NCBI GenBank assembly: GCA_029881725.1
Contig: JAOUMB010000028.1
Location: 1-36,034 of the forward strand
Length of the DNA stretch: 36,034 nucleotides
Direction of reading: 5' to 3'
Origin: Nitrospirota bacterium
GTDB lineage: Bacteria; Nitrospirota; JACRHL01
A model generated the notes under the pieces. That model ran no database searches. It saw only the letters and a program-made list of their open reading frames with translations, and was not told the origin of the DNA. The first letter of the stretch is position 1. Each line of letters starts with the position of its first letter. A program made the position numbers and the translations under genes. Positions 3,235 through 30,320 of this stretch are shown here, one piece after another.

Positions 3235-6200
3235 ATGGTACGTTCGATGTGGATCCACGGGAAAATTCGGGCACTTGCCGGGCTTCTGCCCGCGTTCATA
3301 CTGACCCTGTTGGTGGTTGGATGTGGCGGCGCCGGAGGGGGCGAAAGTGTGACCGATCCCGGGCAGGTGACGCCGCCCGGGGATACGCAATTCGCGGATG
3401 TGATCGGCGTATTCTCCCGGCCCGGTCCGATCGTGGCGGTCCGTGTTGGCGAAGTGGCCAATCTGGACGGCAGCCGGTCGACCACCTCCTCCCCCTTTGT
3501 GCCGATTTCGGGGTACAGCTGGACCTTTACCTCCAAGCCGGCCGCCAGCAATGCCCTGTTGCAGGATGTCACGGCAGTGAACCCATGGTTTGTGCCGGAT
3601 GCCCCTGGGGTCTATACGGTGCAACTGGTTGTCACCGCCAATGGAATTACCAGCCCGCGCCAGGTCGGAATCGTGGTGGCCACCATCGCGCCCGAGCGGT
3701 ACACCGGTCCGTTCAACCACATGGGGTTGTCGTCCAATTGCGTCAACTGCCACAGCGGCGACCTGGACATGGCTTCGACCGGTGGCAAGATTCCGGGTAA
3801 ATCGATCACCCACTTCGCTTCCAGCAATGCCTGCCAGACCTGTCACACGCCCCAGGGATTCAAGCTCATCCCGTTTGTGGATCACCAGGAGATTTTTGGC
3901 AATTGCAGCGAGTGCCATAACGGAGTGGTTGCGGTTGGAAAATCGGAATTTCACACCCCCACGAACGGGGAGTGCGGCAACTGCCACAATACGACCTCCT
4001 TTCTGGAGTTGGCGCTGGATGGAAGCTTCGACCACTCGAACATATCCAGGTCATGTACCGGGTGCCATAACGGTACGATCGCCACGGGAATGAGTCCGGG
4101 TCATATCGTTACCAACACCCAGTGCGGGTACTGTCATACCACGGTAAGTTTCCTGCCGGCCTACCCGGATCACACCGGCCCGGATGTGGTGGGGCAGCGG
4201 TGCGATTCATGCCATGGCGTTGGGCAGGTTCCGGGGCAGTCGATCGGCCATCCGGTGACGGCGGTGGACTGTGGCGCATGCCATGGCATCACCACATTCA
4301 GTCTGGGGGGTGTTTTCGACCACTCCCTCCTCGATTCCATTACCCAACCGTGCGAGGCCTGCCACAACGACACCAACAGCATCAATGCACGCGGAAAATC
4401 GTCTGCGGTGCCCACCCATCCGCAAACGACCTCCGATTGCGGCAACTGCCATAACACGGTGTCGTTTGTTGGCGCGTTTATCGATCACACCGGAATCGTG
4501 TCCAACTGCAATGCGTGTCACGGGGTCACGGCGATCGGTAAATCACCCAACCACATGCCAACCACTCCCGACACCCAGGATTGCGCGGCGTGCCATACGC
4601 CGGGCACCTTCAGCAGCGGAACCTACGACCATGCCGGTGTGATCAGCGGGTGCGCGTTGTGCCACAACAACGTGATCACCGTTGGCAAGCTGGTCAACCA
4701 CATCCCCACCAATCCGGTGGATCAGGATTGCGCCGATTGCCACACCACCACCGAGTTTGCAAACACGCCCTTTTCCCACGTGGGCATCGACCCCGCCAAT
4801 TGCACCCTGTGCCACAATGGGGATATCAGCCTCGGCAAGCCGCTGAACCACGTGCCGACGGCCCTGGACTGTTCCGGTTGTCATGACGTAAACAACTTTG
4901 CCACCTTCGCGGGCATCCTCTTTGGCCACCAGGGAATCGATCCGGCCAATTGTGCCGTCTGCCACGATACGGGCCTCGCGCTCCCCAAGCCGGCTACCCA
5001 CATACCGGCGCGGGATGATTGCAGCGTTTGTCACGATTCCACCGTGGTGTTTACCTCGACCACGTTTCTTGCCACCACCCATCCGGGAATCACCCGCGGG
5101 TGTGAAGGGTGCCACACCGCCAGGTTCTTCCCCACCCGGCCGACGTTATACAAATCGGCCGCGCACCTGCCGACCACGCAGGATTGCTATCGATGCCATA
5201 CCACCACTGCATTCGTTCCGGCAATCACGCCGTTTTTGCATGTGGGCATCACCGATAACTGTGCCTCCTGCCACGATGGAAGTGCGGGGTATGTCGCGCT
5301 CGGAGCCAGAGGAAAGACCAGTTCGGCCATTCATCTGAACACCACCAGCGACTGTTCGGTGTGCCATAACACGACGAATTTCCTCAACGCGTTTGTGGAT
5401 CACACCGGCCCCCAGGTGGTGGGTAAACGGTGTGACTCCTGCCACAACGGGATCAGTGCGACCGGCAAGGATGCAAAGACCAATCCCCCGCACGTAATCA
5501 CCAGCCAGGATTGCGGTGTCTGTCACGTGCCCGGCGGCACCTTTGTGCCCGCGGTGTTCAACCACACCGGCATTGTTAACAACTGTGCCTCCTGCCACGA
5601 TGGCACGGCGGCGACCGGTCTGTCCCTGACCCATATTCCCGTGGCGCCTGGCCAGGACTGTTCCGAGTGTCATAACACCACGGCGTTTGCCGGTGCAAAA
5701 TACGATCACCAGGGCATCGTCAGCGATTGCGCGGTGTGCCATAACGGTATTTCGGCGCGGGGAAAAATCCCGCCGCCGGATCACGTACCGACCAACCGGG
5801 ACTGCGCGGATTGCCATCAAACCACCGGATTTCTTCCGGCCACCTTTGATCACGCGGGAATCGTGGATAACTGCGCGTCCTGTCACGGTGCCGGTTTTGC
5901 CACGGGAAAACCCGCGCTTCACGTGCCGACCTTTGAGGACTGCGGCGTGTGTCACAACACCAATACGTTCATCGGCGCGGTGTTCAATCACACCGGCATC
6001 GTGGACAATTGCGCATCCTGCCACGGCACCACGGCGATCGGAAAGAATTTCGGCCACCTGGCCACCGACCTGGACTGCCATTTCTGCCACACCACCGCCA
6101 CCTTCCTGGGCGGTACATGGGTGCACGATGCCAGCACCGCGGGGACATGTGATGGATGCCACACCAATGGCGGTGGCGCCACCGCCAAGCCCGGGTGGCA

Positions 6201-6513
6201 TTTGAGCACCAACGTACAGTGCGACGTGTGCCATTCCACCAGCGGCTGGGTTCCGAGCACGTTCCGTCACAGTCCGGCGGGGGATTACCCGGGCGACCAC
6301 CGCATCGACCCCGGGTGCCTCGGTTGCCACGGCAGCAGCGTGAGCACCACGTTTGCGTGGCCCTCACCCCAATACGCTCCGTTCTGCGCCGCCTGTCACG
6401 AGCGCGATTTCCGAAGTGTAAGCGACCACAACGGCGGAAGAAGTGGCACGGTGGAGCAGAACAAGAACTGCGGCGCCAGCGGATGTCACCGGATCACCAG
6501 CAGCGGGTTTTGA
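3235..6513 (+). CDS. Giant multiheme c-type cytochrome lipoprotein (36 CxxCH plus one CX4CH)
   Basis: The protein has 1092 residues. A lipoprotein signal ends in VVGC (Cys30), so it is probably exported and lipid-anchored. Residues about 55-150 look like a PKD/REJ-type beta-sandwich. From residue 169 to the C-terminus I count 36 CxxCH haem-binding motifs and a final CX4CH at about residue 1079, one haem per about 25 residues. Haems alternate in two-haem modules of about 50 residues. One half reads like NCASCHxGxAxGK, then HxPT; the other reads DCxxCHNTTxF, then FxHxGI. The extra His in each half can serve as distal ligand, so bis-His low-potential haems are expected. The likely role is long-range extracytoplasmic electron transfer. 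No porin or other partner lies next to it. ATG 3235 is used; ATG 3247 is possible. The ribosome site is weak. Confidence 0.93.
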   Translation: MVRSMWIHGKIRALAGLLPAFILTLLVVGCGGAGGGESVTDPGQVTPPGDTQFADVIGVFSRPGPIVAVRVGEVANLDGSRSTTSSPFVPISGYSWTFTSKPAASNALLQDVTAVNPWFVPDAPGVYTVQLVVTANGITSPRQVGIVVATIAPERYTGPFNHMGLSSNCVNCHSGDLDMASTGGKIPGKSITHFASSNACQTCHTPQGFKLIPFVDHQEIFGNCSECHNGVVAVGKSEFHTPTNGECGNCHNTTSFLELALDGSFDHSNISRSCTGCHNGTIATGMSPGHIVTNTQCGYCHTTVSFLPAYPDHTGPDVVGQRCDSCHGVGQVPGQSIGHPVTAVDCGACHGITTFSLGGVFDHSLLDSITQPCEACHNDTNSINARGKSSAVPTHPQTTSDCGNCHNTVSFVGAFIDHTGIVSNCNACHGVTAIGKSPNHMPTTPDTQDCAACHTPGTFSSGTYDHAGVISGCALCHNNVITVGKLVNHIPTNPVDQDCADCHTTTEFANTPFSHVGIDPANCTLCHNGDISLGKPLNHVPTALDCSGCHDVNNFATFAGILFGHQGIDPANCAVCHDTGLALPKPATHIPARDDCSVCHDSTVVFTSTTFLATTHPGITRGCEGCHTARFFPTRPTLYKSAAHLPTTQDCYRCHTTTAFVPAITPFLHVGITDNCASCHDGSAGYVALGARGKTSSAIHLNTTSDCSVCHNTTNFLNAFVDHTGPQVVGKRCDSCHNGISATGKDAKTNPPHVITSQDCGVCHVPGGTFVPAVFNHTGIVNNCASCHDGTAATGLSLTHIPVAPGQDCSECHNTTAFAGAKYDHQGIVSDCAVCHNGISARGKIPPPDHVPTNRDCADCHQTTGFLPATFDHAGIVDNCASCHGAGFATGKPALHVPTFEDCGVCHNTNTFIGAVFNHTGIVDNCASCHGTTAIGKNFGHLATDLDCHFCHTTATFLGGTWVHDASTAGTCDGCHTNGGGATAKPGWHLSTNVQCDVCHSTSGWVPSTFRHSPAGDYPGDHRIDPGCLGCHGSSVSTTFAWPSPQYAPFCAACHERDFRSVSDHNGGRSGTVEQNKNCGASGCHRITSSGF

Positions 6514-6668: not shown

Positions 6669-7013
6669 AAGTCCCCCCCTTCCCCGCCATCTTCCCATCC
6701 CCCCGCCTTGCGGGGTTAGGGGAAATCTCGCTGCTAAATTGTTTAAAAAAATGACAAAAATCGATGTTTGCTTTATCTTGGTCATAAGCCGGCACTGAAC
6801 GTACGGCAAGTGTGGTGTATCCGCGAATGCGCGTGTGTTTGAGTCGCGAGCGTGAATGGTTCACCAGTTTAGAGCCAGAGTTGGAAACGAAAGAGATGGG
6901 CGGAGTTGTGGCCGGTGTCGGAGTTGCTCCAAACCACGTGGGGTGACGGGCGATCGGCGCTCCGTTGCGGACCAACCTGGTTCCTTTTCCGTGTTATATA
7001 TGGGGTGACAGCA
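6669..7013 (+). other. Intergenic leader region before the SGNH hydrolase gene
   Basis: This is the second part of a 500-base gene-free stretch. It holds a small GC hairpin at 6701-6715 and then an unusually AT-rich segment at about 6731-6790 with the promoter candidate. The following 220 bases show no recognisable element except GGGGTGA just before the start codon at 7014. A continuous open frame runs through from 6906, but its upstream residues do not resemble a signal peptide. Confidence 0.5.
6751..6779 (+). promoter_or_regulatory. Candidate promoter for the SGNH hydrolase gene
   Basis: ATGACA (6751-6756) and TATCTT (6774-6779) are exactly 17 bases apart within the only strongly AT-rich stretch of the intergenic region. 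A start near 6786 would give a leader of about 225 bases before the ATG at 7014, which leaves room for leader regulation, though no known leader element is recognised. Confidence 0.4.
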
Positions 7014-8267
7014 ATGATGGGGTCCAACTTATCCGCGAAATCTATCATGAGTCCGATGGGAGAATTGGTGGTTGCCGCGCTGCTTCTCGCCGCTTGCGGT
7101 GGGGGCGACGTGGCCGGTGGCGGGGGATCGGATTTGCAGTCCGGCATCCCCGCCCCGGTCGCCCTGGTCGATCGGTTTGAGTCCGATCTGGTTCCATGGA
7201 CAAGCACCGGATCGGTGGCGGTTGAAATCAACGGGAACGACGAGAAACTGGCGTTCAAGGCGGCGGGTTCGCAAGCCGAACGGCCGTTTATCGAACCGGC
7301 CACCGATTACCTGGTGGAGTTCGACCTCATGGCGGAGAGTCCGGCCACCATTTCAGGCTCCCTGGTGGGTGTCTCCGATCAGGTGCTGGCCACGGTGTCG
7401 TTCGATGCCGCCGCTGCAACCGGCCATTTTTCCACCGATGCTGCCGAGCCGATCCCGTTCCCGTGGACCGCTTCCACCTATCGCCAGATGGTTGTGCGCG
7501 TCAATCACCACACCAACACGCTTACGCTGTGGAATGCGGTGAACGGGGATGCCTCCTGGCGGCGGATCGGCTCCCTGCCGTATTCCGGAGGCATCGCCGC
7601 CAAGTTACGCTTTTCCGGCGGCGATGCAGCGGCTTTCGCGTGGGTCGACGAACTGCGGGTGTATGCGCAAGGCACGGTGGTCATCGGCGACTCCCTTGCG
7701 GCCGGAGCGATGACCTGGAGTCCGTTCCCTGGCTTCCCCGGCCGTTTGCGCGCAACCGAAGATGAACAGCACGATGTCGCCACGCAACTGTATCGCCTTA
7801 ACCCGGAGGGGGGCTGGGTGGCCAATCGTGGCATCAATGCGCAACGGACGTTTCATATTTACGCCCGCCGCTCGGACGTCATCGATCAGGGCTTCAAACG
7901 GGCGGTACTGCTGGTTGGCGTCAATGACGTAGCACTTGGCCGGGCGACGGAAGACATCATTGTGGACTACCAATCCATCCTGTCCGTCCTGCTGGAGGCG
8001 GGGGTGGAACCGGTGTTGTGCACGGTCCCGCCGCGCACGGCCCCCACGCCCAAACAGGTGGCCGATACGGATGCCATCAACCAGTGGCTGCGTGCCCAGG
8101 CATCCCCGGCGGTGCGCGTGGCCGATATTTTCTCGGTGCTTGTGGATCCGGAAACGAAGAAGCTCTTCACCTGGGCCGCGGGCGACTATGTGCATTGGAC
8201 CCAGGCCGGATTGGAGGCCGCCAGTCAGGAAATCCACCGGGCGCTGACGGCCCCCGCGTTGCCCTGA
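7014..8267 (+). CDS. SGNH/GDSL-family hydrolase lipoprotein
   Basis: The protein has 417 residues. A lipoprotein signal ends in LAAC (Cys28) and is followed by a Gly-rich linker. Residues about 50-215 form a beta-rich region resembling a concanavalin/LamG-like sandwich. The C-terminal half is an SGNH hydrolase: GDSL block with Ser227, a Gly in the NRGI segment, GVND with Asn304, and the DxxH block with Asp391 and His394. All four catalytic blocks are present, so it is probably an active esterase, for example removing acyl or acetyl groups from surface glycan. The ATG at 7014 has GGGGTGA 5 bases upstream. It lies downstream of the cytochrome but seems to have its own promoter. The substrate cannot be told; a beta-sandwich ahead of the catalytic domain suggests carbohydrate contact (inference). 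Confidence 0.82.
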   Translation: MMGSNLSAKSIMSPMGELVVAALLLAACGGGDVAGGGGSDLQSGIPAPVALVDRFESDLVPWTSTGSVAVEINGNDEKLAFKAAGSQAERPFIEPATDYLVEFDLMAESPATISGSLVGVSDQVLATVSFDAAAATGHFSTDAAEPIPFPWTASTYRQMVVRVNHHTNTLTLWNAVNGDASWRRIGSLPYSGGIAAKLRFSGGDAAAFAWVDELRVYAQGTVVIGDSLAAGAMTWSPFPGFPGRLRATEDEQHDVATQLYRLNPEGGWVANRGINAQRTFHIYARRSDVIDQGFKRAVLLVGVNDVALGRATEDIIVDYQSILSVLLEAGVEPVLCTVPPRTAPTPKQVADTDAINQWLRAQASPAVRVADIFSVLVDPETKKLFTWAAGDYVHWTQAGLEAASQEIHRALTAPALP

Positions 8268-8332: not shown

Positions 8333-9235
8333 TCACGCGGTTTCCACCCGCCACACCACCTCCGTCACCGTCTTCCCGTCCGCCACCCGCCCACCGGCAA
8401 TCAGCAGCGCATCGCCGGTGGAAGCCATGACTCCCATCACGCGGGGTTCGGGCAGGTCGGGCAGTTCCTCCCAGGCATTACCGGTCCAGCGGGCGTGACG
8501 GGGGGTGATGGCGCCGTCCTCGTTGCCGCCCGCCACATGCAAAAAGCCGTGGTGCACATCCGCATACAGCCCGGCGGCGGCCCACGGCAGGGGGGTCGGG
8601 GCGGTGCCCCACACGCCGCCCAGGGGGTCGTAGACCTCGATGGTGTCCAGGTTGCGGAACGTGCCGTCCTGATACGCGCCGCCGCCCATCACCCAGATGC
8701 CGTCCGGCATGGGCACCGCGCACAGGGAAAACCGGGCCGTCGGCATGGCTTCCAGCTTGCCCCACTCGTGGGCGCCGCCGGGAAGCCGCTCACAAAAATC
8801 AAAGGCCGGGTCGGTGAGCGGTCCGCCGTCCGCGTCCGGGTGGTGGCCGCCAAACAGAAACACATCCCCGTTCACCACCGTCGCCGCCGGGGCGTCGTGG
8901 CGCATGATCAGGCTCGGCGCCGGTTCCCACCGGTCCTGGTCGGGCAGGTAGGCCTCGACGATGCTCTTGAAATCGAAGGTGCCGTCCGGTCGCTTGAAGC
9001 CGCCGCCCATCACGTAAATCCGGTCCCCCACCGTGGCGCAGGCGATGCCGGAGCGGTGCGAGCTCATGGGCGCGCGGCGCTCCCAGCGGTCGCTGGCCGG
9101 GTCGTACATCTCCACGCTGTCCAGGCTCTGGAAGTCGGCGCCGCCGCCGCCAAAGACATACAGCTTGCCGTTGTGCACCGCGCTGCCGAAATGGGAGCGC
9201 GCCTGCTGCATGGGGGCGACGGGAATGGCGCGCAC
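8333..9235 (-). CDS. Kelch-repeat beta-propeller protein (second of a tandem pair)
   Basis: The protein has 300 residues. Six Kelch blades are visible through LYVFGGGG, IYVMGGGF, VFLFGGHH, IWVMGGGA, a LHVAGG-type strand and LLIAGG, spaced about 50 residues, so a closed six-blade propeller is expected. There is no signal peptide and no extra domain, so it is probably cytoplasmic. It starts at a GTG only five bases after the stop of the upstream Kelch gene, which points to translational coupling. It is clearly a paralogue of that gene: both carry GGGF-x-PDG, HHPDA-x-GGP and DPAF at the same places. Kelch propellers bind proteins or, in NanM-type enzymes, sialic acid; no nan genes are nearby, so function is open. 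Confidence 0.85.
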   Translation of the reverse strand: MRAIPVAPMQQARSHFGSAVHNGKLYVFGGGGADFQSLDSVEMYDPASDRWERRAPMSSHRSGIACATVGDRIYVMGGGFKRPDGTFDFKSIVEAYLPDQDRWEPAPSLIMRHDAPAATVVNGDVFLFGGHHPDADGGPLTDPAFDFCERLPGGAHEWGKLEAMPTARFSLCAVPMPDGIWVMGGGAYQDGTFRNLDTIEVYDPLGGVWGTAPTPLPWAAAGLYADVHHGFLHVAGGNEDGAITPRHARWTGNAWEELPDLPEPRVMGVMASTGDALLIAGGRVADGKTVTEVVWRVETA

Positions 9236-9240
9236 GGGGG

Positions 9241-10161
9241 CTAGCCGAGGTCCAGGGCTTCGACCCGGTTGGTTACCTCGCGGCCGTCCCCCTTCCAGCC
9301 GCCCACCGCATACAGGCGGTTGTCGATGATGGCCATGCCCATGGCCGCGCGCGGCGCATCCAGGCTGGGCAGGTCCTTGTGGGAGCCGTTGGCGATGGAG
9401 AACTGCACCGCCTTGTCGTGAATGCCGGGGCCGGAGTAGCCGCCGACCACATACACCGTGTCACCCCGGTGGGCGACACCATGGGCGGCAGCGGGCCACG
9501 GCATGGTGAAATCGGGGGTGGACCAGGTGCCGGTGGCCGGATCGAACACGTCGATGCGGTCGAAATCGCGGATGCCGTCCACCTCGGCCACGTAGCGGCA
9601 GCCGCCGATGGCGTGAATCTTCCCCCCCCAGGTGAAGCCCATGGCCGCGAACCGGGGAATCGGCAGATCCGCCACCTGCTCCCACGCGCTGGCGCCTTTT
9701 ACCAGACGCTCCGTATAGCCGAAGGCCGGGTCGCTGGAGGGACCGCCCTCGGTTGCGTCCGGGTGGTGCCCGGCGATGATGTAGATGGTGCCGTTCAACT
9801 GGGCGCAGGCCGGATAGTCGTGGGGCTGGGTCATGTCCGGTCCGGTGGACCACTCGTCGCGGACCGGATCGTAGATTTCCACCGTGGGCAGAAACCGGAA
9901 TTTTCCGTCCGGCTTGCAGAACCCGCCGCCGATCACCCAGATTTTTCCGTCGATCACCGCGGTTACCGCCCCGGAGCGCAGGGTGGGCATGGGGGCGGCT
10001 TCATCCCAGCGGTCGGTGACCGGATCGTAAATCTCGGTGGTGTTCAGGCTGGCAAAGCGCGGGCCGCCGCCGCCGAATACGTAGATGCGCTCGTCCCAGA
10101 CGGCGGTGGCCGGGTGGGAGCGGATGTGATTCAGGGGGGCGGTGTCGGTCCAGCGGGCCAT
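9241..10161 (-). CDS. Kelch-repeat beta-propeller protein (first of a tandem pair)
   Basis: The protein has 306 residues with six Kelch blades: IYVFGGGG, IWVIGGGF, IYIIAGHH, IHAIGGCR, VYVVGGYS and LYAVGGWK, each followed by a YDP-x3-W type strand in most blades. There is no secretion signal. The ATG at 10161 was chosen because GAGG lies just upstream and the next gene upstream ends 26 bases away; the frame stays open beyond it without Kelch character. It sits between a small single-pass membrane protein and its own paralogue, all in one direction, so the three are likely co-transcribed. The pair probably arose by tandem duplication, now well diverged. Function unknown. Confidence 0.86.
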   Translation of the reverse strand: MARWTDTAPLNHIRSHPATAVWDERIYVFGGGGPRFASLNTTEIYDPVTDRWDEAAPMPTLRSGAVTAVIDGKIWVIGGGFCKPDGKFRFLPTVEIYDPVRDEWSTGPDMTQPHDYPACAQLNGTIYIIAGHHPDATEGGPSSDPAFGYTERLVKGASAWEQVADLPIPRFAAMGFTWGGKIHAIGGCRYVAEVDGIRDFDRIDVFDPATGTWSTPDFTMPWPAAAHGVAHRGDTVYVVGGYSGPGIHDKAVQFSIANGSHKDLPSLDAPRAAMGMAIIDNRLYAVGGWKGDGREVTNRVEALDLG

Positions 10162-10187
10162 GGGGTCCTCGTGATGAAAGGAAAAAA

Positions 10188-10394
10188 CTACGGAAAGCCG
10201 GGCACGGCCGGGGTCATGTGCTCGGTATCCGGCTGGAAGGTGTTGAACATGTGGAACCCGCGCAGCATGAACAGCAGGATTCCCACGCACACCAGGCTGA
10301 GCAGCACAAACAGGATAATGAGGTTCAGCGGCAGCCCTTTTTTGGGCGGGGCCGGGTCCGGCTGGCGAAGGGTAGGGTCCGTCGTGTCATTCAT
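10188..10394 (-). CDS. Small single-pass membrane protein upstream of the Kelch pair
   Basis: The protein has 68 residues: a Pro/Asp-rich N-terminus (TDPTLRQPDPAPPKK), one strong transmembrane helix (about residues 21-44, LPLNLIILFVLLSLVCVGIL) and a C-terminal tail of about 22 residues. The lysine pair before the helix suggests the N-terminus stays in the cytoplasm. It ends 26 bases before the first Kelch gene on the same strand. I do not recognise a family. The ATG at 10394 lacks a good ribosome site; an in-frame TTG/GTG further upstream is possible. One possibility is a membrane tether for the cytoplasmic Kelch propellers, which is only inference from position. Confidence 0.6.
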   Translation of the reverse strand: MNDTTDPTLRQPDPAPPKKGLPLNLIILFVLLSLVCVGILLFMLRGFHMFNTFQPDTEHMTPAVPGFP

Positions 10395-10549: not shown

Positions 10550-11866
10550 GTGACCAGTCAGGCCAACGGAATTTACGCCCGCCGCCGGGAGCGCTTCATG
10601 GCCTCCATGGATGGCGGCATCGCCATCTTTCCCGGCGCGCCGGAAACCATCCGCTCCGGCGATGTGCACCACCGGTACCGGCAGGATTCGGACTTTTTAT
10701 ATCTGACCGGCTTCACCGAGCCGGGGGCGGTGCTGGTGCTCGACCCGGAGCACCCCAAACACCGCTTCCGCCTGTATGTGCAGCCCAGGGATCCGGACAA
10801 GGAACGATGGACCGGCCGCCGCGTGGGGGTGGCGGGAGCGCGCAGCCGCTTCGGCGCCGATGCGGCCTTCGAGGCCCACACCTTTCGCACGGATCTGCCC
10901 GACCTGCTGGCCGGGCGCGGCAAGGTGTTTTTGCGCGTGGGTTCCGACCCGCATCTGGATCAGGACGTGCTGGGGCATATCGCCACCTTGCGCACCCGCA
11001 CGCGGGCGGGGCAGAGGGGACCGCTGGAGGTGGTCGATCCGGCCCCCACCCTGGCCGAGTTCCGCCTGCTCAAGAGCGAGGACGAGATCGAGGCCCTGCA
11101 ACGGGCCGCCGAGGTGACTGCCGATGGCCATCTGGCCGCCATGTGCGTCACCCGTCCCGGCGTCTGGGAGTACGAGGTGGAGGCGGCCATCGAATACGCC
11201 TTCCGCAAGGCGGGCGCCACCGGGCCGGCCTATCCCACCATCTGCGGCGCGGGCGAGAACGCCACCATCCTGCACTACATCGACAACGACCACAAAATGA
11301 AGCGCGGCCAACTGCTGCTGATCGACGCGGGGGCCGAGGTGAACGGCTATGCGGGGGACGTGACCCGTACCCTGCCGGTTTCCGGCCGCTTTACCGACGC
11401 CCAGCGGGCGCTCTATACCCTGGTGCTGGACGCGCAAAAGGCGGCCATTCGCAAGGTGAAGCCGGGGGTGACCTTCGACGCGGTACACCAGGTGGCGGTG
11501 AAAAAACTGGCCGAGGGGCTGGTGGCGCTGGGGCTGCTGGAGGGGCCGCCCGCGCGGGTGGTGAGGTCGGGCGATTTTCGTCGTTTCTACATGCACCGCA
11601 CCAGCCATTGGCTGGGGCTGGACGTGCATGATGTGGGCAGCTACGTATCGCCCCAGGGCAACAGCCGTCCGCTGGAGCCGGGCATGGTGCTCACCGTGGA
11701 GCCGGGGCTGTATATCGGCGCCGAGGCGGGCATTCCGAAGGACATGCATCATACCGGCATCCGCATCGAGGACGACGTGCTGGTGACCGAGCGCGGCTGC
11801 CGGGTTCTGACCGAGTCGATCCCCAAGGAAGTGGATGACATTGAGCGCATCATGGCGGACGGCTAG
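10550..11866 (+). CDS. pepP: Xaa-Pro aminopeptidase (PepP type, M24 family)
   Basis: The protein has 438 residues, matching E. coli PepP (441). The N-terminal AMP_N domain shows SDFLYLTGF. The C-terminal pita-bread domain carries the dinuclear-metal ligands: Asp259 in LLIDAGAE, Asp270 in YAGDVTRT, the His of HRTSHWLGLDVHD, the Glu of TVEPGLYI, and the Glu of IRIEDDVLV. It removes an N-terminal residue preceding proline, in the cytoplasm. The start is GTG at 10550 with AGGGGA 4 bases upstream. The last 32 bases overlap the start of the following cytochrome gene in another frame, so the two are translationally linked though functionally unrelated. Confidence 0.93.
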   Translation: MTSQANGIYARRRERFMASMDGGIAIFPGAPETIRSGDVHHRYRQDSDFLYLTGFTEPGAVLVLDPEHPKHRFRLYVQPRDPDKERWTGRRVGVAGARSRFGADAAFEAHTFRTDLPDLLAGRGKVFLRVGSDPHLDQDVLGHIATLRTRTRAGQRGPLEVVDPAPTLAEFRLLKSEDEIEALQRAAEVTADGHLAAMCVTRPGVWEYEVEAAIEYAFRKAGATGPAYPTICGAGENATILHYIDNDHKMKRGQLLLIDAGAEVNGYAGDVTRTLPVSGRFTDAQRALYTLVLDAQKAAIRKVKPGVTFDAVHQVAVKKLAEGLVALGLLEGPPARVVRSGDFRRFYMHRTSHWLGLDVHDVGSYVSPQGNSRPLEPGMVLTVEPGLYIGAEAGIPKDMHHTGIRIEDDVLVTERGCRVLTESIPKEVDDIERIMADG

Positions 11867-12347
11867 CGCCCTGGTCCTGGCGGCCCTGAGCGCCGCCTGT
11901 ACCCCGACCCAGCCCCCCGCCGCCGAAAATTACGACCCACGGGCGGTGGTGGCCCGGGTGCTGGCGCTGACCCCGGACCCGGAGGCGGGGCGCGCGGTGT
12001 TCCGCTCCTGGTGCATTTTCTGCCATGGAGACCAGCAGGCCGGGGAGCCGCCCACGGATTTCGGTTTCGGCGACGAGAATCCCCGCCGCTTCCGGGGCTA
12101 TGCCGGGCTTACCCCGGAAACCCACGTGACCGCCATCGTGGAGGGGTTCGTGAGCGCATCCACCGGCCACCGCAACATGCCCCCCTTCGGCCAGCGCCTG
12201 AGCGCCCAGGACATCGCCAACGTGGCCGGCTATGAGCGGTGGGTGACCGAACTGGCGCCGGGGGCCTACTGGGAGCGCTCCATGTACTCCTGGTGGCCGG
12301 AGGATCCGCCGCATATTCCGGGGGTTCCGCCCGGCAGCACCCGTTGA
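11835..12347 (+). CDS. Monoheme cytochrome c lipoprotein
   Basis: The protein has 170 residues. A signal sequence ends in LSAAC, a lipobox, so it is probably anchored to a membrane facing the periplasm. It has one CIFCH haem site (residues 60-64) preceded by EAGRAVFRSWC, the usual class I cytochrome c helix. The candidate sixth ligand is Met115 in NMPPFGQRLS, followed by QDIANVAGY, the C-terminal helix of the fold. The start at 11835 lies inside pepP and is supported by AAGGAAG just upstream; no later start preserves the signal. A short Trp/Pro-rich C-terminal tail follows the domain. It could be an electron carrier; its physiological partner is unknown, though the same window holds a giant multiheme cytochrome. 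Confidence 0.85.
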   Translation: MTLSASWRTASALVLAALSAACTPTQPPAAENYDPRAVVARVLALTPDPEAGRAVFRSWCIFCHGDQQAGEPPTDFGFGDENPRRFRGYAGLTPETHVTAIVEGFVSASTGHRNMPPFGQRLSAQDIANVAGYERWVTELAPGAYWERSMYSWWPEDPPHIPGVPPGSTR

Positions 12348-27761: not shown

Positions 27762-28364
27762 TCAAACGAACAGGCTGGTTTTGGCCTTGCTGGAGAACTC
27801 CAGGAAGGTGGCGGCGCCACCGATCTGCACCCCGTCGATCAGGTCGGACTGCCGGGTGCCCATCACGTCCATGGTCATCTGGCAGCCGATCAGCTTCACG
27901 TCCAGGTCCAGGGCCATGTCCAGGAACTCGGGGACCGATTGCAGCTTCACCCGGCCCATCCAGTTTTTCATCATCATGGTGGCGGCAGAGGTCATGCCCG
28001 GCAGCATGCCGATGATGTTCGGCACCGGTACCGGCATGGCCGGGTTGCCCACCGGCGGCACGCCCAGGGAGCGGTTCTTCTTCTTGTTGATGATGTCCAG
28101 GCCGTAGAAGGTGAAGAAGATGCCCGCCTCCATGCCCATGGCCGCGGCGGTGGTGGCCAGAATCAACGGCGGGTAGGCCATGTCCAGGCTGCCCTTGGAG
28201 GCCACGATGGCGATGCGGTCCAGTTGGCCGGGGGCCTGACGGGCCTCGTGCTCGGCCAGGGCGCGGGCCACCCGCTCGTCCACCAGGGCGTCCAGCTTCC
28301 GGTCCAGAACCGCCTGGACCCGCTCCTCGACGATGGCGTCGATGTCTTTTTCGGTTGCACCCAT
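27762..28364 (-). CDS. DsrE2-type sulfur carrier protein
   Basis: The protein has 200 residues. An N-terminal amphipathic stretch (about 5-45, many Arg, Asp and Glu, coiled-coil-like) precedes the DsrE/DrsH-like domain. The domain signatures are ASKGSLDMAYPPLILATTAAAMGME and IFFTFYGLDII, then a single Cys161 in LIGCQMTMDVMG, the persulfide-carrying cysteine of DsrE2. The hydrophobic MPVPVPNIIGMLPGM segment is typical of this group. It has AAGGAGA before its start and is the last gene of the operon, separated from tusA by 94 bases. In sulfur oxidisers DsrE2 works with TusA to pass persulfide sulfur. Confidence 0.9.
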   Translation of the reverse strand: MGATEKDIDAIVEERVQAVLDRKLDALVDERVARALAEHEARQAPGQLDRIAIVASKGSLDMAYPPLILATTAAAMGMEAGIFFTFYGLDIINKKKNRSLGVPPVGNPAMPVPVPNIIGMLPGMTSAATMMMKNWMGRVKLQSVPEFLDMALDLDVKLIGCQMTMDVMGTRQSDLIDGVQIGGAATFLEFSSKAKTSLFV

Positions 28365-28446
28365 GGGTCGGTCTCCTTATCTGTTCCGCGCCCGCGATCC
28401 GGTGTCACACACGCTCCGGATACGCCCAATAAAGGCGCAATATATC

Positions 28447-28463
28447 GGTAAATCCAGTTTACC
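28447..28463 (-). promoter_or_regulatory. Inverted repeat over the tusA stop, ahead of dsrE2
   Basis: GGTAAA (28447-28452) and TTTACC (28458-28463) are perfect 6-bp arms with a 5-base centre, overlapping the TAA stop of tusA. On the minus strand TATATT (28439-28444) follows immediately and could be a -10, but the -35 position is poor. It may be an RNA hairpin or a site for a second promoter serving dsrE2. Confidence 0.3.
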
Positions 28464-28701
28464 CGACTTTTCGGATATAGTAAGTATAAATTCCCTCGCC
28501 CTCTTCCCGGTCCACCATTTCGTTCCCGGTTTTGCTGACCCAGGCGGCCATGTCGTTGATCGATCCCGGATCGGTAGCCAGCATTTTCAGCACCTGACCG
28601 GCCTGCATGCCGTCGATGGCCTTTTTGGTTTTGATGATCGGCAACGGGCAGCTCAGGCCCCGGCAATCGATCTCTTCATCCACGTGAACCTGACTGCTCA
28701 T
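28459..28701 (-). CDS. tusA: TusA-family sulfur carrier
   Basis: The protein has 80 residues with the TusA/SirA two-layer fold. The signature DCRGLSCPLPIIKTKKAI carries Cys18 in a CPLP motif, the persulfide site. The GQVLKMLATDPGS strand and the EMVDREEGEGIYTYYIRK end are as expected. It accepts and donates protein-bound sulfane sulfur. AGGAG lies 7 bases before the ATG at 28701. It is the second TusA-like protein of the operon and the more canonical one. Confidence 0.9.
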   Translation of the reverse strand: MSSQVHVDEEIDCRGLSCPLPIIKTKKAIDGMQAGQVLKMLATDPGSINDMAAWVSKTGNEMVDREEGEGIYTYYIRKVG

Positions 28702-28715
28702 ACAAACACTCCTCG

Positions 28716-28958
28716 TTACCAGACAACGGCCCGTTCGTGGGCCAGCATGAGTTCCCGGATGCCGTCGTAATCCAACTGGGGGTAGGGGCTTTCCACCTGC
28801 CGGGCGGCCACGTCGTCCTTGCTGGCCGACACCGGGCACGGAAAGCCGTTTTTGTGCAGCACGCCGTCCTGCACCAGCAGCACGGCATCTCCCCGCGGGT
28901 CGAGCACTTCCAGACAGTGGCGCACATCCAGGGTACGCACGATATGCAGGGTGGACAT
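28716..28958 (-). CDS. DsrH/TusB-like protein
   Basis: The protein has 80 residues. It fits DsrH/TusB: MSTLHIVRTL at the start, AVLLVQDGV in the middle and a C-terminal LDYDGIRELMLAHERAVVW ending in the conserved Trp. It has two cysteines (15 and 41); neither lies in a clear copy of the usual DsrH site. DsrH normally forms a heterohexamer with DsrE and DsrF (or TusD and TusC). The order here, DsrE-like, DsrF-like, DsrH, matches dsrEFH. The start at 28958 follows GAAAGAGG. Confidence 0.82.
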   Translation of the reverse strand: MSTLHIVRTLDVRHCLEVLDPRGDAVLLVQDGVLHKNGFPCPVSASKDDVAARQVESPYPQLDYDGIRELMLAHERAVVW

Positions 28959-28970
28959 GGGCCTCTTTCC

Positions 28971-29315
28971 TTAAAACGGGATGACCACGTCGGCGGTGCG
29001 CAGGGTGGCGATGATCTCCTTGCGGTCCACCGTCTGTACGTCCTCGCGCAGGCGGGTCACGCCATACTTTTCCAGCGATTCCCGCTCCACCAACTGCCGC
29101 ACGCCCACCGCCTCGTAATAGCTGACGAATTCGGCCACCTCCGGCCGGTCCACCACCTCCGGGTGAAACGACACCGCGTTGAACACCCCTTCATCGAGCA
29201 TGGCCACGGTCACTTCGTTGTGGCCCAGGGTGAGGCCGAGCCCGAGGCGGAACGCCTCCAGGTTCTTGATGTGGTTGAGCGGGGTGTGCCGAAGCAGCAG
29301 GACGACGTGTTTCAC
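28971..29315 (-). CDS. DsrE/DsrF-like protein without cysteine
   Basis: The protein has 114 residues and starts MKHVVLLLRHTPLNH, with a Rossmann-like DsrE-fold pattern (LGLGLTLGHNEVTVAMLDEGV, then AVGVRQLVERESLEKYG). It occupies the DsrF/TusC position between DsrE-like and DsrH genes. It contains no cysteine at all, so it cannot itself carry persulfide and is probably the structural subunit of a DsrEFH-like complex. It begins 4 bases after the upstream stop. Assignment to DsrF rather than a general DsrE-like protein rests on position. Confidence 0.78.
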   Translation of the reverse strand: MKHVVLLLRHTPLNHIKNLEAFRLGLGLTLGHNEVTVAMLDEGVFNAVSFHPEVVDRPEVAEFVSYYEAVGVRQLVERESLEKYGVTRLREDVQTVDRKEIIATLRTADVVIPF

Positions 29316-29319
29316 CGGG

Positions 29320-29661
29320 TCACCCGAAATGGAGGAAATAGTCGGAATCGGCCACGATATCCGCCAGGTGATCCTGACTGCGGCATTCCACCCCGTTCAC
29401 GAAGTCGCTCTCGCCAAAGCCGCGGATATCCCCGGTGGTGAGGCACAGGGACACCTTCAGCCCCTTGCCCATCAACTCCTCCAGGCCGCCGAACAGGCGG
29501 TAGGGGGAGCTGTTCTTGAGCACGTTGTAGATGCCGTCGTTCATCAGGAACAGCTCCGCCTCGTGCCCGCCCTCCAGAAAGGAGGCCAGCAGGCGGCAGG
29601 CGGTATAGGTGTTCTGATGCTCGGGGCTGGTGTTCAGCAGGATGCCCAGCTTTTTGGCCAA
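29320..29661 (-). CDS. DsrE-like sulfur relay protein
   Basis: The protein has 113 residues of the DsrE/TusD fold: KKLGILLNTSPEHQNTYTA, then FLEGGHEAELFLMNDGIYNV, with Cys73 in KVSLCLTTGDIRGFG at the place of the active DsrE/TusD cysteine. Cys22 and Cys93 are additional. It would accept sulfur from, or donate it to, TusA. It lies 10 bases after the TusA-like gene and 4 bases before the DsrF-like gene, so the operon is tight. GDIRGFGE is unlike the common DsrE end and may mark a subfamily. Confidence 0.82.
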   Translation of the reverse strand: MAKKLGILLNTSPEHQNTYTACRLLASFLEGGHEAELFLMNDGIYNVLKNSSPYRLFGGLEELMGKGLKVSLCLTTGDIRGFGESDFVNGVECRSQDHLADIVADSDYFLHFG

Positions 29662-29671
29662 GGTGCGTCTC

Positions 29672-29923
29672 CTACGCCTTCTTCACCAGCAGGGTCCACA
29701 GGGGGCCTTCGGTTTCGGTGATGGACAGGATCTCGTGCCCTTCCATGTCCAGGCTGCGGGGCACGTTTTCGGCCGAGGGTGGATAGTCGATCAGCACGCG
29801 CAGCACCTGCCCCGATTCCATCTTTTCCAGGGTCAGCTTGCTCTTCACAAAGGTGATCGGGCAGGTCACTCCGCGAATGTCCAGCTCGTTGTCCACCTGA
29901 ATATCCATAACCGGTTCGCTCAT
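29672..29923 (-). CDS. TusA-like protein with CPIT motif
   Basis: The protein has 83 residues. LDIRGVTCPITFVKSKLTLE gives the TusA/SirA helix with Cys21, but the motif is CPIT instead of CPxP. The rest fits (SGQVLRVLIDYPPS, then VPRSLDMEGHEIL). The ATG at 29923 overlaps the ArsR stop by 4 bases and has TGGAGAT upstream; a more upstream in-frame ATG would lie inside arsR. The two TusA-like proteins of this operon may serve different partners. Confidence 0.85.
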   Translation of the reverse strand: MSEPVMDIQVDNELDIRGVTCPITFVKSKLTLEKMESGQVLRVLIDYPPSAENVPRSLDMEGHEILSITETEGPLWTLLVKKA

Positions 29924-30264
29924 CTGGCAATCTCCATTAAACATTCCGCCTGGCCCCCGGCTTCCTGCAATCGTTCTTTCAACACACCCCGGAGCAGGTC
30001 CAGCGCCTGCAGTACCGCCGGGTACCGCAGCCGATAGAACATGGTGGTTCCGGACCGCTCCGCCGTAACCAGCCCCCGGTCGCGCAGCACCGCCAGGTGC
30101 TGGGACGCGTTGGACTGGCGAATGCCCAGTTGGTCGGCCAGTTCACCCACCGGAGTGGGGCCGTCGGCCAGGGCATACAACATCAGAATGCGCTTCGGGT
30201 CGGCCAGGGCCTGACACAACTCCGCGTGCAACTGGTGGATCTCTTCTACAAACGCACGTTTCAT
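29920..30264 (-). CDS. ArsR/SmtB-family repressor of the sulfur operon
   Basis: The protein has 114 residues. Its winged helix shows LADPKRILMLYALADG, VGELADQLGIRQSNASQHLAVLRDRGLV (recognition helix) and the wing ERSGTTMFYRL. It has only two cysteines, Cys17 in the first helix and Cys108 near the C-terminus. In sulfide/persulfide sensors of this family (BigR, SqrR) two cysteines form the switch, but theirs lie elsewhere in the fold, so thiol sensing is inference. ATG 30264 is used because KRAFVEE begins the usual first helix; an in-frame ATG at 30303 would overlap the promoter. It is the first gene of the operon and overlaps the TusA-like gene by 4 bases. Confidence 0.9.
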   Translation of the reverse strand: MKRAFVEEIHQLHAELCQALADPKRILMLYALADGPTPVGELADQLGIRQSNASQHLAVLRDRGLVTAERSGTTMFYRLRYPAVLQALDLLRGVLKERLQEAGGQAECLMEIAR

Positions 30265-30275
30265 AATTGTCCGCG

Positions 30276-30297
30276 TATATTCGTGGGTATGAATATA
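30276..30297 (-). promoter_or_regulatory. Candidate ArsR operator
   Basis: TATATTC (30276-30282) and GAATATA (30291-30297) form a perfect 7-bp inverted repeat with an 8-base spacer. The distal arm contains the whole -10 hexamer of the arsR promoter. An AT-rich palindrome at this place is what ArsR-family repressors bind, so autoregulation is likely. Confidence 0.6.
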
Positions 30298-30320
30298 ATT
30301 CACCCTGTCGATCGTGTCAA
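30292..30320 (-). promoter_or_regulatory. Strong sigma-70 promoter of the arsR-tus-dsr operon
   Basis: On the minus strand a perfect TTGACA (30315-30320) is separated by exactly 17 bases from TATATT (30292-30297, five of six). The expected start is near 30285, about 21 bases before the arsR ATG. This is the best promoter in the window and is overlapped by the candidate ArsR operator. Confidence 0.7.

Follow-up and report, generated by a model that had tools for sequence, protein, structure and literature searches.

The gene P0001, on the forward strand at positions 3235-6513 of the window (the whole 36,034-nucleotide stretch of DNA analysed here), encodes a 37-haem lipoprotein cytochrome that, to judge from sequence and genome comparison, is likely to form the outer section of a porin-cytochrome conduit of the PCC3 type, anchored by lipid and constant in length. 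Its main interest is as a conserved companion of PCC3 with 37 haems and a lipid anchor. PCC3 comprises a porin, extracellular and periplasmic multihaem cytochromes and an inner-membrane protein in which the motif HX13H occurs twice; He et al. (2017, PMC5566968) modelled it as receiving electrons from a donor outside the cell. We infer the export of P0001 to the outer face, its contact with the PCC3 complex, its wire-like shape and its function. In the literature text, no multihaem cytochrome that is a lipoprotein or has a PKD domain was found linked to PCC3; supplementary tables may list one.

The P0001 reading frame is unbroken across 1092 residues and contains 36 CxxCH motifs (residues 169-1051) and one CX4CH motif (residue 1079), giving 37 haem sites spaced 22-32 residues apart. 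These counts agree with the preliminary description of a lipoprotein with about 37 haems, one every 25 residues or so. When the sequence was shuffled with its composition kept, CxxCH occurred 0.38 times on average and three times at most. All but one of the 75 cysteines (74) lie within haem motifs, the exception being Cys30 of the lipobox. A frameshift, raised earlier as grounds for doubt, is unlikely because the G002 ortholog, with 68% identity, has an equal set of 36+1 haem sites. Of the cytochrome c maturation genes, whose absence was the other ground for doubt, CcmF (for haem attachment) is present in the genome of P0001.

The haem chain (3739..6489, forward strand; residues 169-1085) is built on a two-haem repeat of about 49 residues and matches Pfam Cytochrome_C7 with an E value of 1.7e-49. 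All but one of the 37 haem sites have a candidate distal histidine 6-14 residues upstream, and 38 non-motif histidines, about one per haem, are found from just ahead of the first motif onward; these spare histidines fit bis-His ligation throughout the chain. AlphaFold returned no confident structure for the haem chain, either at full length (pLDDT 28.5 with three sequences) or in a 304-residue fragment.

A haem number in the thirties, which the preliminary description took to be exceptional, is by itself not unusual. The extracellular cytochromes of PCC3 have a median of 34 haems and a maximum of 85, and the periplasmic ones a median of 21 (PMC5566968), while the extracellular part of PCC3 in Gallionellaceae has 10-35 haems (PMC10734462; clusters 241/242/331). 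Large c-type cytochromes of Geobacter contain 12, 27 and up to 34-37 haems, the 12- and 27-haem proteins being fusions of c7 modules (PMC2996986), and the largest of them are comparable with P0001 in haem number. What differs from the PCC3 cluster cytochromes, which had 7 to 47 CxxCH in the genomes examined, is constancy: all ten full-length P0001 orthologs (nine from one clade, plus that of G482) have 37 haem sites, including one in which a lost CxxCH is offset by a second CX4CH. Between species, haem segments are 56% identical at matching positions versus 22% at other positions, which indicates that each repeat is maintained individually. The G436 ortholog is split across two contig ends: one piece carries 8 sites and a further, truncated one, the other carries 28, and the total would again be 37 if nothing is missing between the two pieces. 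Among more distant P0001-type members the number of CxxCH varies from 10 to 40. One ortholog, from an uncultured gammaproteobacterium (L006 9986-13498), runs off its contig; its haem sites exceed 37, with CxxCH occurring at least 38 times, and a portion of its haem chain seems to be present twice, reflecting either a duplication or an assembly fault.

Direct reading and a family lipobox scan place a type II signal peptide at the N terminus (3235..3324, forward strand), with the lipobox VVGC, a predicted lipidated Cys30, Gly at position +2 and then a Gly-rich tether. Cys30-Gly31-Gly32 is invariant in a three-way alignment of P0001 relatives, and Gly after VVGC30 predicts, by sequence rule, an outer-membrane lipoprotein. 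The orthologs in G403 and G404 have Asp directly after the lipobox Cys, a residue that in E. coli holds lipoproteins in the inner membrane. Residues 54-153 (3394..3693, forward strand) form a PKD (Ig-like) domain, modelled by AlphaFold in the 304-residue fragment with a pLDDT of about 73-95 (19 sequences). The PKD-like domain proposed earlier is borne out by Foldseek, in which the model matched solved PKD domains (best match E 4.2e-6); the Pfam match, to K319L-like_PKD (PF22352), was weak (E 6.7e-5, below the family cut-off). The earlier suggestion of a wire fit for the cell surface is likewise supported. The type II system exports surface cytochromes in Shewanella, and its secretin GspD is present in the genome of P0001. 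Immediately downstream of P0001, a gene at 6906-8267 encodes a GDSL-type hydrolase with its own lipobox and Gly-rich tether, likely another surface lipoprotein, and is followed by two tandem kelch beta-propeller genes at 8333-10290.

P0001 resembles the Shewanella decahaem lipoproteins MtrC and OmcA in having a lipid anchor and a beta-sandwich domain and, putatively, in forming the surface end of a conduit, and searches of solved structures found weak local sequence similarity between MtrC and its haem part. In contrast to P0001, MtrC and OmcA have 10 haems and another domain layout; with its 37 haems, P0001 reached 97.5 of the 209.3 bits set for the OmcA/MtrC family (TIGR03507, NCBIfam). OmcS, OmcE and OmcZ are, like P0001, chains of c-type haems thought to move electrons outside the cell; they have few haems per subunit and polymerise. 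The relatives of P0001 constitute a distinct family of lipoproteins with a PKD domain. Scanning contigs with P0001 yielded a single close ortholog and, at a greater distance, three multihaem loci; a plasmid search yielded remote matches only.

P0001 is tied to PCC3 by its C-terminal cap, about 80 residues (6268..6510, forward strand) ending in the CX4CH site. A profile of this cap scored 109 bits on P0001 and 140 bits on the PCC3 extracellular cytochrome encoded on contig C108 of the same genome, and matched P0001-type and PCC3 extracellular cytochromes, with no match among the PCC3 periplasmic cytochromes tested. Residues 872-1090 of P0001 are 42% identical to the C108 cytochrome. The spacing of the last cap site varies: most orthologs have CX4CH and two have CX6CH, while PCC3 cytochromes have CX3CH and a single distant relative has CxxCH. 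This interchange suggests a genuine, loosely spaced haem site. P0001 and the PCC3 extracellular cytochromes also have in common a Cytochrome_C7-type haem repeat of about 23-26 residues, a haem number within the reported range of 10-85 and co-occurrence with the porin. P0001 differs in being a lipoprotein with a PKD domain, in being often encoded outside the cluster, and in lacking a start module, FDHFxTGFPLxG, defined in this analysis. The module is absent from P0001 and its orthologs, is found in most PCC3 extracellular cytochromes and resembles repeats of the periplasmic cytochrome.

The window is the entire contig C59 of a 2.96-Mb genome that is 98% complete. The preliminary description had noted that no porin or partner cytochrome is adjacent to P0001. 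This holds within C59, where no PCC3 porin or inner-membrane protein was found, but not genome-wide: a complete PCC3 cluster, having all the features tested (porin, two cytochromes and inner-membrane protein), is located on C108, apart from P0001. The C108 porin (945 aa) contains SPOR repeats, TPR and a C-terminal region that, from sequence and homology, is probably a barrel. The periplasmic and extracellular cytochromes are adjoining 21-haem proteins, and the 720-aa inner-membrane protein has WX3HX13H at residues 514 and 695 and SGxxG at residue 555. Homologues of this porin occur in all four genomes of the organism's class, only two of which have a P0001 ortholog, as well as in the genome of L006. 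Beside the cluster (L010, G000:C108:22000-41999) lie a TPR-type gene and a divergent gene for an Fe-S/FAD pyridine-nucleotide oxidoreductase; both neighbours recur at L026, L027, L028, L063 and L066, suggesting that the oxidoreductase is part of the PCC3 pathway. Elsewhere in the window are a single-haem (CIFCH) CBB3 subunit III-type cytochrome with a lipobox-like signal (11835-12347), adjoining an Xaa-Pro aminopeptidase-like gene, and a sulfur-relay cluster of DsrE-type genes, a TusA-like gene and an ArsR-like regulator (27762-30303), of a kind often found in sulfur oxidisers.

L006 served as the entry point to the family and led to a survey of 54 genomes of its order, in which P0001 orthologs are present in 10 and the PCC3 porin in 25. 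All ten ortholog-bearing genomes carry the porin (Fisher 1.4e-4, with related genomes treated as independent). Likewise, in a class sample of 369 genomes, P0001-type proteins occur in 7 and the porin in 46, and all seven carry the porin (p 2.5e-6 without the seed genome, again treating related genomes as independent); five further genomes of this sample match in haem repeats only and were left out of the family count. Neither the 54-genome order nor the 369-genome class sample contains a P0001-type gene without a PCC3 porin. Four genomes (G550, G765, G485 and G748; L078-L080, L083-L085) have 88-271 first-look multihaem cytochrome candidates each, with several P0001-type paralogs of varied lengths, two of them in tandem in G748 (L084). 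In a tree built from the N-terminal part, the window's protein and that of G002 group with each other inside the clade of orthologs from the other order, a placement compatible with either transfer between lineages or weak rooting.

Gene linkage points in the same direction. Across 12 ortholog-bearing genomes, including those of the window and G002, the ortholog lies in or beside PCC3 genes in seven. It is inside the PCC3 cluster in G403 (L063) and G404 (L066), following the porin directly on the same strand; it is convergent with and beside the porin in G436 (L108), behind the porin with ribonucleotide reductase genes in between in G396 (L006) and G408 (L058), and adjoining a short extracellular cytochrome gene in G400 (L059) and G448 (L060). 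In the window's genome, G002, G407, G414 and G420 the gene is away from PCC3 genes, on short contigs in some. Linkage and co-occurrence fall short of proving contact between P0001 and PCC3.

The presence of an ortholog is accompanied by a difference in the cluster itself. Seven ortholog-bearing genomes have a short cluster extracellular cytochrome, of 7-11 haems, that lacks a cap. In G420, G002 and the window's genome the cluster extracellular cytochrome is capped; none was seen in G408 and G414. In contrast, genomes of the same order without an ortholog have the cap in all 12 clusters (11 genomes). Capless cytochromes are found in 7/10 ortholog-bearing genomes versus 0/12 clusters without an ortholog (p 7e-4), and, within the order only, in 7/8 versus 0/11 genomes (p 1.6e-4), with related genomes treated as independent in both comparisons. 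A lone capless 7-haem cytochrome, similar to the short extracellular cytochromes that PCC3 has in genomes with an ortholog, is also encoded in the window's genome on C36 (L011 9483-10217), with no second porin cluster found around it. These patterns lead to a bolder proposal, for which the case is evenly poised: that PCC3 has a further, unrecognised redox part, a lipid-anchored PKD cytochrome with a fixed 37 haems, which in many lineages took over the outer, capped end of the wire while the cluster cytochrome was reduced to a 7-11-haem porin adaptor.

In the arrangement envisaged, electrons could move in either direction. The b-type inner-membrane protein and the 21-haem periplasmic cytochrome would provide the first links, followed by a porin-embedded short extracellular cytochrome or a longer capped one, with the start module presumably at the porin. 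P0001 would come next, its lipid tethering it to the outer leaflet. Its cap would meet the external partner, which may be a mineral, an electrode, a partner cell or a soluble metal, and electrons would be exchanged there. Without a start module of its own, P0001 would exchange electrons with the rest of the conduit through the short or capped extracellular cytochrome. Since the C108 cytochrome has its own cap and P0001 is encoded outside the cluster, P0001 could also serve another path in this organism.

P0001 might instead simply duplicate the 21-haem extracellular cytochrome of PCC3, with no division of labour between the two; the cap already present on the cluster cytochrome in the window's genome, G002 and G420 speaks for this. 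This reading is unlikely: a lipid anchor and PKD domain replace the FDHFxTGFPLxG module in P0001, the cluster cytochrome lacks a cap in seven of the genomes that have P0001 but in none of those that do not, and the window's genome also has the capless cytochrome on C36. Improbable, too, is a role as a capacitor that stores electrons at the surface, or as a redox-active adhesive coat, in which 37 haems would buffer electrons at times when no acceptor or donor is available and the PKD domain would bind polysaccharide or mineral. The large haem number and the frequency of PKD domains in surface binding proteins speak for this reading; the strictly fixed haem number and the position-specific repeats, which a pure store does not need, speak against it. 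The capacitor idea has been raised for PCC3 cytochromes (PMC10734462), and a store would be compatible with the PCC3 model rather than an exclusive alternative to it.

The preliminary description suggested a stand-alone conduit or an extracellular filament. The stand-alone reading is probably wrong, since in the genomes surveyed the family is found only with the PCC3 porin, is often encoded beside PCC3 genes and shares the cap with PCC3 cytochromes. A self-sufficient surface wire or filament apart from PCC3, with P0001 polymerising or conducting while fed by other cytochromes, would accord with the five genomes in which the gene is apart from PCC3 genes and with the low ratio of about 25 residues per haem, but it is quite improbable given that distribution and cap, a lipid anchor and fixed length better suited to a membrane-tethered monomer than to a shed filament, and the lack of any match to OmcS, OmcE or OmcZ relatives among solved structures.

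The reading of P0001 as an outer section of the PCC3 conduit bears on a system that is widespread and a candidate, biochemically untested, for oxidising iron and for extracellular electron transfer of other kinds. If the proposed replacement of the capped end is true, the exterior wire would have two parts, an adaptor and an extension of measured length. A surface extension distinct from the cluster and constant in haem number would help to account for the wide variation in length among the cluster cytochromes. P0001-type genes can be missed by searches confined to the PCC3 cluster. The family offers a biological wire of defined length, in which conduction may be related to haem number, and a simple genetic test of PCC3 conduction.
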